From a virus: a stretch of 64,000 nucleotides of DNA. The stretch lies in the IMG/VR virus record IMGVR_UViG_3300046787_000130, positions 62,001 through 126,000 of that record, one strand, 5' to 3'. The translations under genes were made by a program, and so were the position numbers. Under the pieces are notes generated by a model. That model was not told the DNA's origin. It saw nothing but the letters and a program-made list of their open reading frames with translations, and ran no database searches. Below, one piece after another: positions 22,546 to 30,404 of this stretch. Numbering within the stretch: the stretch's first letter is position 1; the number at the start of each line of letters is the position of its first letter.

Positions 22546-24254
22546 TTATATTCCAAAACATTCGATGGAAGAATTTCCTGTCTACAGGAAATGTCTTTAC
22601 TGAGTTAGCACTTAACAAGCATAGCAATACGCTGATTGTCGGTGAGAATGGCGCAGGCAAGTCTACGCTACTTGACGCTGTCACGTTTGCTTTGTTTGGT
22701 AAGCCATACCGCAACATTAACAAGCCTCAACTAGTTAACTCTATCAATAACAAGGATTGTCTTGTTGAACTAGAGTTTCAACTAGGCGAGAAGCAGTATC
22801 AGATTCGTAGAGGCATCAAGCCTAACGTGTTTGAGATTAAGTTAGATGGCGAGTTGCTTAACCAAGACTCAAAGGCTAAAGACTATCAGGACATGCTTGA
22901 GCGGTTAATCCTCAAGATGAACCATAAGTCATTTACGCAGATTGTAATCCTTGGTAGTGCTTCATTCACTCCATTTATGCAACTCAACGCAGCTGACCGT
23001 CGTGCTGTTATTGAAGACTTGCTTGACATCCAAATCTTTTCTAACATGAACTCAATCGTGAAAGATAAGGTGAATGGACTCAAGTCTGAAATTAATGAAC
23101 TCAAGATTCGACTTGATAACGTGAAAGAGAAGATTGAACTTCATAAGAAGCATATTGAGGAGATGAAGAAGAATAATCAAGAGATGATTGATGCTAAGCA
23201 GACTGAGTTTGAACAAAACATTACTGCGGTCAAGGCATATCAGGAAGACCAAGAGAAGATTCAGTCTGAAATTGAAGCACTGGTTGAGCAAGTATCTGAC
23301 CTTGTTGCCGTTAGAAGCAAGAACAACAAGTTGATTAGTTTTGAGGCTAAGATTCAACAGAACATTAGCAAAACAGAAAAAGAGTTTGAGTTCTATCACG
23401 ATAACGATAACTGCCCGACTTGTAAGCAGGTGCTAGAGTCTACCTTTAAAGGCGAAAAGATTGTTGAATGCGAACGCAAGTTTGAAGAATACAATAAGGG
23501 TCTTGAGAAGTTAAAGGCAGAGCAAGAGACTGTTACTGCAAGAATCGCAGAGATTGAAGTGGTTAATAAGACCATTTCAAGTCATCAAGCCAATGTTGCT
23601 AGGACTAGTGTTTCTGTTTCTCACCTTCAGAAGTATAATATCAACCTTCAGAAAGAAATTGAAAGGCTAAGTGAAAGCAAGAGCATTAGTGCTGATACCA
23701 AGGAAGAGTCAAAGAAACTTGTTGAAGAGTATACAGGTTACTTAGAACGTCGCAAGGTAGCAACAGAAGAGAAGCAATACTATGACATTGCTGCTCAACT
23801 ACTGAAGGATGGTGGCATCAAGGCTAAGATTATCAAGCAGTACTTGCCTGTCATCAATAAACTGGTAAATAAGTATCTTGCGTCTATGGACTTCTTTGTC
23901 AACTTTAACATTGATGAAGAGTTCAAAGAGACTATCAAGTCAAGACATCGTGATGATTTCAGTTATGAAAACTTTTCAGAAGGTGAGAAGCAGAAGATTG
24001 ACTTATCGCTACTCTTGACTTGGCGCGCGATTGCGCGTATGAAGAACAGCGTCAATACCAACTTGCTCATCCTAGATGAGACATTTGACTCAAGTCTAGA
24101 TGGTAAGGGTACTGACTCATTGCTACAGATTCTTCAGACTCTACCAGATAACACTAATGTTTTTGTTATCTCGCACAAAGACCAACTGTTTGATAAATTT
24201 GCTAACGCTATTCGCTTTGAGAAAAAGCAAAACTTTTCGAGGATTGCCCCATGA
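22542..24254 (+). CDS. 46: Recombination endonuclease subunit gp46 (Rad50-like)
   Basis: Encodes 570 residues (T4 560). Walker A is G-E-N-G-A-G-K-S-T (about 33-41). A coiled-coil arm carries the zinc hook C-P-T-C (about 291-294). The ABC signature is F-S-E-G-E-K-Q-K, with Walker B L-L-I-L-D-E-T-F-D. It dimerises through the hook and works with gp47. ATGA overlaps at both ends link it to gp47 and the deformylase. Confidence 0.96.
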   Translation: MIIFQNIRWKNFLSTGNVFTELALNKHSNTLIVGENGAGKSTLLDAVTFALFGKPYRNINKPQLVNSINNKDCLVELEFQLGEKQYQIRRGIKPNVFEIKLDGELLNQDSKAKDYQDMLERLILKMNHKSFTQIVILGSASFTPFMQLNAADRRAVIEDLLDIQIFSNMNSIVKDKVNGLKSEINELKIRLDNVKEKIELHKKHIEEMKKNNQEMIDAKQTEFEQNITAVKAYQEDQEKIQSEIEALVEQVSDLVAVRSKNNKLISFEAKIQQNISKTEKEFEFYHDNDNCPTCKQVLESTFKGEKIVECERKFEEYNKGLEKLKAEQETVTARIAEIEVVNKTISSHQANVARTSVSVSHLQKYNINLQKEIERLSESKSISADTKEESKKLVEEYTGYLERRKVATEEKQYYDIAAQLLKDGGIKAKIIKQYLPVINKLVNKYLASMDFFVNFNIDEEFKETIKSRHRDDFSYENFSEGEKQKIDLSLLLTWRAIARMKNSVNTNLLILDETFDSSLDGKGTDSLLQILQTLPDNTNVFVISHKDQLFDKFANAIRFEKKQNFSRIAP

Positions 24255-24838
24255 GTAAGATGGTTAAGTTTGTTAATGGTCATATGATTTCGTATGAAGT
24301 ACTAAAACTAGTTGATAAGTATGACCCTATCCTACATAAGCCAACAATCCCTGTTGACTTTAACAACTTACAAGAGCAGCAAATAGACACAGCTGAATTG
24401 GCTTATTCGCTTGTAGAAACTATGAATAAGTTAGGTGGTCTGGGTTTATCTGCTAATCAGGTTGGCATCCCTTATCGCGTATGTGCTATTAATGTCGGTA
24501 AGGAAGCACACATACTTTTCAACCCAAGAGTAGTCATGATTTCTGGTAATGTATCTAAGTTAAAGGAAGGCTGTTTGTCATTTCCTGGGCTTTATCTAGA
24601 AGTTGGTAGACCTGAACTGGTAACTGTTGAGTTTTACGGTATTGATGGTGCTAAGCAAATTCAAACTTATGAGGGAGTCCATGCTATTTGTGTACAGCAT
24701 GAGATTGACCACCTAGATGGTATTTGCTACACGAAGAAAGTTTCTCCATTAGTTCTTGAACGTGAGAAGAAAAAGGTCAAAAAGAACATGCGCAAAATCA
24801 AGGAAGCAGCGCAAAGAATAGCCCGAAATTCTAACTAA
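24251..24838 (+). CDS. def: Peptide deformylase
   Basis: Encodes 195 residues. All three deformylase motifs are present: G-L-S-A-N-Q-V-G (motif 1), E-G-C-L-S-F-P (motif 2, metal Cys) and Q-H-E-I-D-H-L-D-G (motif 3, HExxH). It removes N-formyl groups from new proteins. Phage deformylases are known from aquatic T4-like phages and are thought to sustain turnover or maturation of host and phage proteins during infection. ATGA overlap with gp46 places it in the recombination operon. Confidence 0.95.
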   Translation: MSKMVKFVNGHMISYEVLKLVDKYDPILHKPTIPVDFNNLQEQQIDTAELAYSLVETMNKLGGLGLSANQVGIPYRVCAINVGKEAHILFNPRVVMISGNVSKLKEGCLSFPGLYLEVGRPELVTVEFYGIDGAKQIQTYEGVHAICVQHEIDHLDGICYTKKVSPLVLEREKKKVKKNMRKIKEAAQRIARNSN

Positions 24839-28576: not shown

Positions 28577-28605
28577 TTGCCTTTTCAAGCATTCAGGCGT
28601 ATAAT
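28577..28605 (+). promoter_or_regulatory. Sigma70-type promoter upstream of winged-helix-like gene
   Basis: TTGCCT (28577-28582), 17-base spacer, TATAAT (28600-28605). The expected start is near 28612, inside the 5' arm of the following hairpin. Confidence 0.75.
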
Positions 28606-28608
28606 AAT

Positions 28609-28659
28609 CTTGTTGGATGTAAATGTCACCGCATCCAACAAGGCTTTTTCTTGGTGACA
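28609..28659 (+). promoter_or_regulatory. Predicted H-type pseudoknot leader
   Basis: Stem 1: CTTGTTGGATG (28609-28619) pairs perfectly with CATCCAACAAG (28632-28642). The loop segment TGTCACC (28624-28630) pairs perfectly with GGTGACA (28653-28659), just before the ribosome-binding site of the next gene. Part of the structure (stem plus TTTTTC at 28644-28649) could also act as a weak terminator for upstream transcription. Confidence 0.6.
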
Positions 28660-28673
28660 AATTGGAGTTGATT

Positions 28674-28955
28674 ATGTCCGCAGTTGAATCGTTTTATACT
28701 TACCTTGCTGAAGGCAATACCGTAACCACTCGCGCTGCCCGCGCAATGTTCAAGGTTGAGCACGTCAGCACTCTAGTGTACCGTTTGCGCAATGCTGGTG
28801 TTCCGGTTTACACCAACCGCTACACGACCAGCCGTGGTGAGCGCACCTTTGCCTATCGCATTGGTCAGCCATCTGAAGCATTTGAGAATGCTCTCAGCAC
28901 TCGTCATAAGGCACGTGCTCGCAAGGCACTCTACCGTCAGGCTGTTGGCGCATAA
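28674..28955 (+). CDS. Small winged-helix/HTH-like protein
   Basis: Encodes 93 residues from ATG 28674, chosen because GGAG lies 7 bases upstream; an in-frame ATG at 28623 lies within the pseudoknot and would add an implausible N-terminus. The pattern V-T-T-R-A-A-R-A-M-F-K-V-E-H-V-S-T-L-V-Y followed by R-N-A-G-V-P-V-Y-T-N resembles helix-turn-helix proteins of aquatic T4-like phages. The tail is basic. It probably binds DNA or RNA. The structured leader suggests post-transcriptional, perhaps autogenous, control. Confidence 0.7.
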   Translation: MSAVESFYTYLAEGNTVTTRAARAMFKVEHVSTLVYRLRNAGVPVYTNRYTTSRGERTFAYRIGQPSEAFENALSTRHKARARKALYRQAVGA

Positions 28956-28959
28956 GTAT

Positions 28960-29007
28960 AAGTCACCTTGCTTGTGACTTTGGGGGAGCAGAAATGCTCC
29001 CCTTTTT
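28960..29007 (+). terminator. Tandem hairpin terminator
   Basis: Hairpin 1: AAGTCAC (28960-28966) with GTGACTT (28974-28980). Hairpin 2: GGGGAGCA (28983-28990), loop GAAA, TGCTCCCC (28995-29002), then TTTTT. The second is a strong rho-independent terminator isolating the downstream modification operon. Confidence 0.93.
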
Positions 29008-29063: not shown

Positions 29064-30404
29064 ATGGTAACTGTAATTGTAGCAAAATCAAAATTGGATT
29101 GTGAACAACTGCTTGGACAGTTTGTAGATGAATCGCATTATGATGTCGTTGTAGATATGGATGTTGATTGCTACATGCCCCGTAACTGTAATGCTGCTGA
29201 GATTCTAGATTGTAACCAAGATTGCAATAATTGCGATAAAGGGCAAGATGAGAGCCGTATTGCTTTCAAGTTCAGAAAGAATTGGTTCACTAAGGAAGAA
29301 CAAGAGCAAGCCTATGAAGGGTTGCGAGATGCCGCTACACCATCAAACAATCGCGGTATTGCTGCTGGACCAAGAGGCAGTTATTCAGGCTCACGTTGGT
29401 ATGTTACTGACTATCAGCAGAAGATTCTAGACTACATTGAACAGGAACCTGAAACATCTTTCACGCCATTCAAAGATATTCTAAAAGAGATTGATGCTAA
29501 AGAATCAAAGGAGCATAGCACTCATGGCGCTGTTTGGCTCACTGCTCAGATTGAAGAAGACAAGTTTGATTTTGATAAGTGGGTCAAGCAAACTATTAAA
29601 ATGACTGTTGCTGAACGCAAAGCAGCGGCTGCTGATGTAGTCAAGAATTATATCTCAGGCACTCACTATGCTAACAAAGTCAATTCAGGTATTGCCGGAT
29701 GGTATGACCGTTATCCCCGCGCACCTTTTGGTCGCGCAACAGCATACACGCAGCATCACTATAGTAAGTTTGAAAAGTCATTTCCATTCCTACAGTCTCT
29801 GAATAGAGGTTTCAAAGAGTTGATGCCACAGCGTTGGAGCAACCAACGTAAAGCCGCTGATACACTTGACCAACGGTTCCTAGTTCCTGACACCGTGTTT
29901 ACAACCATTACAGTAAACAAGACTTTCAGAACGGCTTGCCATCGTGACGCAGGCGACTTCAATGATGGGTTGAGCAACTTGCTTGTACTGTCTAACAACG
30001 GCAAGTACAGAGGCGGCTATCTAGTGTTTCCTGAATACCGAATCGCAGTAGATGTTCGTCCCGGTGACTTATTGCTAGTTAACAATCATGAAATTATTCA
30101 CGGCAATACTCCCATTGAAACATATGATGATGGTGAGCGTATTAGCCTAGTTTGCTATTTGCGTGAAGGGATGCTTGAGTTGGGTTCTAAGGAATATGAA
30201 GATGCGCGGTTCAACTTCGTAGAAGAGCGCAAGCGTAACAAGGAACATCCTGACTGGCGCAAAGGCTGGAATGGCATCAGTCCAGGAATGTGGACACATC
30301 ATGAATGGTATGACTATCTGCGAGAGTTAGATGAGACAATGCTAGCAAAGTATCATCCTGAAGTAATAGCAACTACATCAGCATTAGATTCACTCTGGGA
30401 TTGA
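29064..30404 (+). CDS. TET/JBP-like 2-oxoglutarate/Fe(II) dioxygenase
   Basis: Encodes 446 residues. The catalytic double-stranded beta-helix lies in the C-terminal half: H293 and D295 in A-C-H-R-D-A-G-D, conserved G-G-Y-L-V-F-P-E-Y, V-R-P-G-D-L-L, distal H346 in I-I-H-G-N-T-P, and likely 2-oxoglutarate-binding R359. The spacing and the G-D-F-N-D-G-L-S-N-L segment resemble TET/JBP enzymes, which oxidise 5-methyl groups of pyrimidines in DNA, some in phages. The N-terminus holds a Cys cluster (C36, C42, C50, C54, C57). It heads a six-gene operon of probable DNA-base modification enzymes. Substrate (5-methylcytosine or thymine) cannot be told from sequence. Confidence 0.75.
   Translation: MVTVIVAKSKLDCEQLLGQFVDESHYDVVVDMDVDCYMPRNCNAAEILDCNQDCNNCDKGQDESRIAFKFRKNWFTKEEQEQAYEGLRDAATPSNNRGIAAGPRGSYSGSRWYVTDYQQKILDYIEQEPETSFTPFKDILKEIDAKESKEHSTHGAVWLTAQIEEDKFDFDKWVKQTIKMTVAERKAAAADVVKNYISGTHYANKVNSGIAGWYDRYPRAPFGRATAYTQHHYSKFEKSFPFLQSLNRGFKELMPQRWSNQRKAADTLDQRFLVPDTVFTTITVNKTFRTACHRDAGDFNDGLSNLLVLSNNGKYRGGYLVFPEYRIAVDVRPGDLLLVNNHEIIHGNTPIETYDDGERISLVCYLREGMLELGSKEYEDARFNFVEERKRNKEHPDWRKGWNGISPGMWTHHEWYDYLRELDETMLAKYHPEVIATTSALDSLWD

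Follow-up and report, generated by a model that had tools for sequence, protein, structure and literature searches.

A covarying H-type leader pseudoknot before a winged helix-turn-helix gene of uncultured T4-like phages: a candidate for autogenous translational control

What role does an RNA fold play when it stands between the start of transcription and the ribosome-binding site of one small phage gene? The question is raised by a locus in a 161-kb IMG/VR virus record, of which positions 62001-126000 (64 kb, referred to here as the window) were analysed. A preliminary description of this DNA had proposed an 11-bp stem whose loop carries a 7-base complement to bases just before the ribosome-binding site, the two together making an H-type pseudoknot, and this is exactly the fold that the sequence holds (Table 1).

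The leader fold and the gene behind it

Stem S1 pairs 11 bases and stem S2 pairs seven, both perfectly, and the two helices interlock as an H-type pseudoknot that is topologically feasible, the loop of stem S1 reading UAAA-UGUCACC-G. One extra wobble is possible per stem, U28608-G28643 in S1 and G28631-U28652 in S2. The mean unpaired value of the Shine-Dalgarno (SD) sequence is 0.36 in the free leader and 0.29 with the knot, low to middling either way, and these values speak neither for nor against sequestration of the SD by the knot. An in-frame ATG within the loop (position 28623, opening a 110-aa ORF) is absent from most relatives and was regarded as chance.

Table 1. Features of the leader, its promoter and its gene (window coordinates)
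Feature	Position	Strand	Remarks
-35 element TTGCCT	28577..28582	+	17 nt spacing to -10; sigma-70-type
-10 element TATAAT	28600..28605	+	predicted RNA start about 28611-28613
S1 5′ arm CTTGTTGGATG	28609..28619	+	read off sequence; covariation
L1, UAAA, 4 nt	28620..28623	+	A-rich among relatives
S2 5′ arm TGTCACC	28624..28630	+	covariation; S2-only shuffle test
L2, one nt	28631		
S1 3′ arm CATCCAACAAG	28632..28642	+	
L3 GCTTTTTCTT, 10 nt, spans S1	28643..28652	+	length 6-13 nt in relatives
S2 3′ arm GGTGACA	28653..28659	+	ends 14 nt 5′ of ATG 28674
Shine-Dalgarno GGAG	28664..28667	+	4 nt after S2, 6 nt before ATG
93-aa winged helix-turn-helix (wHTH) protein	28674..28955	+	Pfam HTH_39, phrog_4973
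Intrinsic terminator after wHTH gene	28982..29003	+	

The wHTH product is predicted (AlphaFold2, pLDDT 90) to adopt a nucleic-acid-binding fold whose C-terminal helix is basic. This predicted structure has no close solved counterpart, its nearest predicted viral structures being HTH proteins of uncultured phages, and the protein has no relative in the genome collection and no convincing homologue among named phages, plasmids or prokaryote genomes. The phage carries T4-like genes, among them those for gp46/47-like proteins, a sliding clamp, a clamp loader and gp32, while the immediate neighbours of the wHTH gene are a CobS-like AAA ATPase upstream and a Tet_JBP-type 2-oxoglutarate oxygenase downstream. 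The oxygenase (29064-30404; Pfam PF12851, 82.6 bits) adjoins the wHTH gene in most relatives and possibly has to do with a modified base in the DNA; the name queuine tRNA-ribosyltransferase, given to this stretch by PHROG 6059, is probably mistaken. Upstream of the CobT/CobS-like pair lies a phage-encoded peptide deformylase (phrog_2890, 24251-24838).

How unusual is the fold within its own genome? When the 85-nt leader was shuffled with its dinucleotides preserved, none of 300 shuffles gave a pseudoknot score as good. The leader knot is also the best H-type pseudoknot on both strands of the window, at -35.4 with the next at -29.7, on simplified stacking scores that ignore pseudoknot loop penalties and serve for ranking only. 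In three shuffles of the whole window the top scores were -27.9, -34.4 and -30.6, and one of these thus comes near the observed value. Nested folding of the leader is only modestly unusual (z = -2.3), which is what one would expect when nested programs cannot score a pseudoknot. Judged by these scores the window fold is by itself unusual, not unique, and it is the relatives that supply the decisive evidence.

Conservation of shape among related phages

A protein search of IMG/VR returned five relatives at first and then 57, from which 32 distinct leaders (85% cut-off), all taken from metagenomic contigs, were assembled. Protein identity among close relatives is 53-96%, and nearly all relatives share the gene order CobT-CobS-wHTH-oxygenase; the leaders are therefore orthologous. 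A strong pseudoknot occurs at the same place in 27 of the 32, built from quite different stem sequences, and a broader search, used as an out-of-sample check, added 36 further contigs with seven new distinct leaders, every one of which has the knot. Overall, both stems are kept in 34 of 39 distinct leaders. The remaining five (L022, L028, L054, L057 and L058) have no knot, which is therefore dispensable in some phages, and in three of these (L054, L057 and L058) the neighbourhood of the gene shows neither a CobS nor an oxygenase homologue.

The extent to which the stems have been rewritten is illustrated by arm pairs such as UGUUGCC/GGCAACA in L002, UGCCACA/UGUGGCG in L031, AUUCCGCA/UGCGGAAU in L004 and GCCCGCAU/AUGCGGGC in L046. 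Among the 34 leaders with a knot there are 27 distinct S1 and 19 distinct S2 5′ arms, and the comparison of leaders reveals neither invariant nucleotides in the stems nor a conserved nucleotide core. Arms are matched to their own partners: when they are swapped between leaders, just 7% of the combinations for S1 and 16% for S2 pair fully. Even the sibling L001, whose protein is 96% identical, differs by two compensated pairs towards the outer end of S1 (T-A to C-G and C-G to T-A).

Covariation was measured on an alignment of 17 leaders made with MAFFT from sequence only, onto which the knot was written from one member. Despite some misaligned rows, 77% of the cells pair, and the two sides have both changed in 15 of the 16 pairs (11 of 11 in S1, 4 of 5 in S2). 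Double-change cells number 47, against 17 in shuffles, and the covariation score is 0.453, compared with 0.187 for shuffled alignments and at most 0.170 when the fold is slid; sliding by one to three columns lowers the paired cells to 35-46%, and on none of five measures did any of 500 shuffles equal the observed value. When S1 was held fixed and the sequence behind it shuffled, the combined p for S2 over 27 leaders was about 2e-18, to be read as an order of magnitude only because the leaders are related. A count of double against single changes along the tree (124 vs 20) is raised artificially by register shifts and the choice of paired stems, and was not used as evidence. The preliminary description had suggested a role in control for the pseudoknot and had named the lack of compensatory changes in homologous leaders as the result that would speak against it; such changes are present in nearly every pair, which supports the pseudoknot and a control role. 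Taken together, the comparison indicates that in a family of T4-like phages the fold is kept by shape while almost every letter of it has been replaced.

Transcript boundaries and restriction to one gene

Where does the RNA begin? A TATAAT-like hexamer ends 2-11 nt 5′ of S1 in 26 of 27 leaders, most commonly at a distance of 7, and in 32 of 34 a -35-like hexamer precedes it by a spacer of exactly 17 nt; S1 therefore starts close to +1 or on it, and most relatives have all of S1 at +1 or beyond. In the window, the TTGCCT-17-TATAAT promoter predicts a start at about 28612, which bears out an earlier placing of the RNA start within the 5′ arm; such a start removes the outer S1 pairs and leaves at least 8 bp. 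At the other end, 23 of 27 relatives have a terminator no more than 90 nt past the stop codon, so that promoter, knot, gene and terminator usually make up one short autonomous unit. According to the predicted promoter and terminator, then, the knot opens a short transcript that is usually monocistronic. One leader, L046, has a very strong knot, with an S2 helix among the strongest, and no recognisable -10.

Other repeats are present around the promoter. A second covarying inverted repeat, with its left arm in the promoter spacer and the 6 nt after TATAAT as its right arm, is found in 24 of the relatives' 52 distinct promoter segments (L003, L016, L018, L019, L030, L036, L081 and others), and is weak or absent in the window (equivalent to about 28587-28611). 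Its non-Watson-Crick cells, read on the coding strand, comprise 13 G.T, 1 A.C and 3 T.T, a strand bias such as RNA would show, even though the repeat runs across the -10. The repeat may be part of an RNA that reads through from CobS, or it may be a feature of the DNA. Four other relatives (L008, L034, L048 and L049) carry long near-perfect palindromes over the -10 in a different register, for example GACATTATACC-n8-GGTATAATGTC in L008, which are possibly operators or bidirectional -10 elements. Between the CobS stop and the -35 of L003, L015, L027, L030 and L109, TCGCAAGAG nearly repeats the S1 5′ arm (CGCAAGA), so that in read-through RNA the S1 3′ arm would have two partners.

The arrangement is confined to one gene. 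Across the 161-kb record, only the wHTH leader presents a -10, a knot, an SD and a start codon in that order, and no second combination of promoter, knot and start codon occurs in the rest of it. The same search in relatives matched 49 loci at the wHTH leader, with the matches elsewhere scattered and mostly lacking an SD and start codon. A general 5′ element of the phage was accordingly rejected, since no further copy is set between a promoter and a start codon, and control linked to gp32 was likewise rejected, as the gp32 leader of this phage carries no knot. A natural variant is instructive in this respect. In L022 (1-760), the wHTH protein is identical to that of L019, and a foreign 68-codon ORF directly after CobS replaces the promoter and leader; upstream of this ORF there is no knot. 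The variant places the knot with the wHTH unit, suggests that the gene can lose it on joining an operon, and provides, with L019, a ready-made comparison of an operonic and a regulated form.

Candidate modes of control and known systems

The sequence shows that the fold exists, that it is conserved, that it stands between start site and SD and that it is confined to the wHTH gene, and on that footing the fold almost certainly controls the reading of this gene alone. The controlled step is quite probably translation, and the partner of the fold may be the gene's own product, at somewhat less than an even chance. Control of translation initiation by the shape of the knot, most likely as autogenous wHTH feedback, is the best explanation of the comparative data, one that we hold tentatively and just short of evenly. 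Such control would proceed as follows. RNA polymerase would initiate at, or just within, stem S1, which would fold first, as a hairpin; the bases just 5′ of the SD, once emerged, would pair with the hairpin loop to form S2. The compact fold would then sit 2-10 nt upstream of the SD, on the platform side of the 30S subunit. There, wHTH protein in excess of its DNA targets may bind the fold, stabilise it, and block or trap the 30S subunit, giving autogenous feedback. As no RNA sequence is conserved, the protein would have to read shape, and binding of this kind by the wHTH product is plausible.

Autogenous repression by shape recognition is thus the likeliest single reading, though a tentative one, and its main rival is a translation enhancer, in which the 5′ pseudoknot and a U-rich linker dock ribosomal protein S1 and the 30S subunit for strong or timed translation with no feedback. 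Pseudoknots and U-rich stretches 5′ of the SD are high-affinity targets of ribosomal protein S1 (PMC10931766), and translation of tisB and timP is activated by 5′ pseudoknots (PMC11295053). The linker between knot and SD, 2-10 nt long in the 34 leaders, is 68% U, which suits ribosomal protein S1 equally well and counts to that extent against wHTH feedback; moreover, docking does not require conserved nucleotides. However, an enhancer of this general kind would be expected on other phage genes too, yet none was found, and it leaves unexplained why the gene of a small nucleic-acid-binding protein should have the knot. We consider an enhancer on balance unlikely, if clearly the strongest of the alternatives. 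Control in trans by another phage or host factor, be it a protein or a loop-pairing sRNA, would equally account for a conserved and gene-specific 5′ element, and the timP pseudoknot is itself under sRNA control. But loops and stems vary freely, so a base-pairing regulator would need to co-vary with them, and no candidate for one was found, which leaves control in trans rather improbable. A little less probable again is a knot that stabilises the 5′ end and shields the mRNA from RppH and RNase E. The start of stem S1 at about +1 in nearly all leaders agrees with this, but a plain hairpin would suffice for it, yet S2 is conserved; the knot is on one gene only, and the retention of a very strong knot by L046 in the absence of a recognisable -10 speaks against protection as the only role.

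Conservation of shape weighs on the remaining readings, most strongly on chance, next on a DNA operator, then on a terminator and least on a classical riboswitch. Chance, or inverted repeats that act at the DNA level as a wHTH operator, retain a negligible share of our belief: the repeat does lie just after the -10, a usual operator site, but the repeats diverge where the protein is conserved, and the interlocked covariation of S1 and S2 is RNA-like. A 5′ RNA acting on transcription, whether by put-like antitermination past the conserved terminator or as an attenuator, would fit a structured 5′-terminal RNA that has a short gene and then a strong terminator behind it. To our knowledge, however, put elements are hairpins without pseudoknots, and stem S1 is no terminator: it is followed by a U-rich stretch in the window and in L001, but this tract is not generally kept (only 9 of 34 leaders reach 5 T within the 8 nt that follow), and S1 as a terminator or attenuator was rejected, making an action on transcription very unlikely. 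Small H-type riboswitches that adjoin the SD do exist, in SAM-II and preQ1, and the preliminary description had allowed for a ligand-binding riboswitch. This option is now disfavoured and appears more remote than an action on transcription, since there is no conserved nucleotide core for a ligand, the regulated gene is not metabolic, and searches of Rfam at gathering and lax thresholds matched no family, returning only far-below-cutoff eukaryotic microRNA and snoRNA noise.

How does the leader compare with pseudoknots of known function? It resembles SAM-II and preQ1 in being a compact H-type pseudoknot next to the SD, but has no conserved ligand core, and its SD is not within the knot. With tisB and timP, which recruit the 30S subunit and ribosomal protein S1, it shares a 5′-proximal pseudoknot and a U-rich or open region before the SD; unlike them, it abuts the SD, and neither a toxin-antitoxin pair nor an antisense RNA partner was found. 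An obvious precedent for the preferred autogenous reading is the gene 32 operator of T4, in which a knot about 67 nt upstream and a UUAAA-rich region of cooperative binding serve repression by gp32 (PMC3014915, PMC535899). Like T4, T2 and RB69 gene 32, the present case involves a T4-like phage, an H-type leader knot, a nucleic-acid-binding product and a single-stranded linker to the ribosome-binding site. In contrast, its product is a wHTH protein and not gp32, its knot ends 13-21 nt before the AUG where that of gene 32 starts about 67 nt upstream, and its linker is only as long as the short spacer described above, with no UUAAA in 28660-28673, as opposed to more than 40 nt of unstructured A+U with UUAAA in gene 32. 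Stem S1 is also unlike that of the gene 32 operator, spanning about one helical turn (median 11 bp). As two defining features of gene 32 are absent, the leader perhaps works alike but is not a gene 32-type operator. The analogy with gene 32 drawn in the preliminary description thus stands in its principle and fails in the protein, in the position of the knot against the SD and in the phage's own gp32 leader.

In the openly accessible literature that was searched, the leader is not described. Should the wHTH protein prove to read the shape of its leader, this clade of uncultured T4-like phages would offer a second independent case of viral autogenous control through a pseudoknot, a prospect that we rate as possible and somewhat below that of feedback itself. 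It is in any case a second phage leader pseudoknot for which comparative support is strong, on another kind of gene, with another geometry and in many related phages. The free turnover of its stems under a kept shape makes shape recognition, or pure handling by the ribosome, directly testable: leaders that share no sequence should be interchangeable. Among the systems compared, the rpsO (S15) leaders offer a further analogy, since they pair a pseudoknot near the SD, which controls initiation, with a nucleic-acid-binding product, as the present leader would. The protein here is not S15, the U-G/C-G recognition motif was not found, and in E. coli rpsO the SD and AUG lie in the loop of the knot, whereas here the SD lies outside it. 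In mycobacterial rpsO the knot is upstream of the initiation site, an arrangement geometrically closer to the present leader than that of gene 32.
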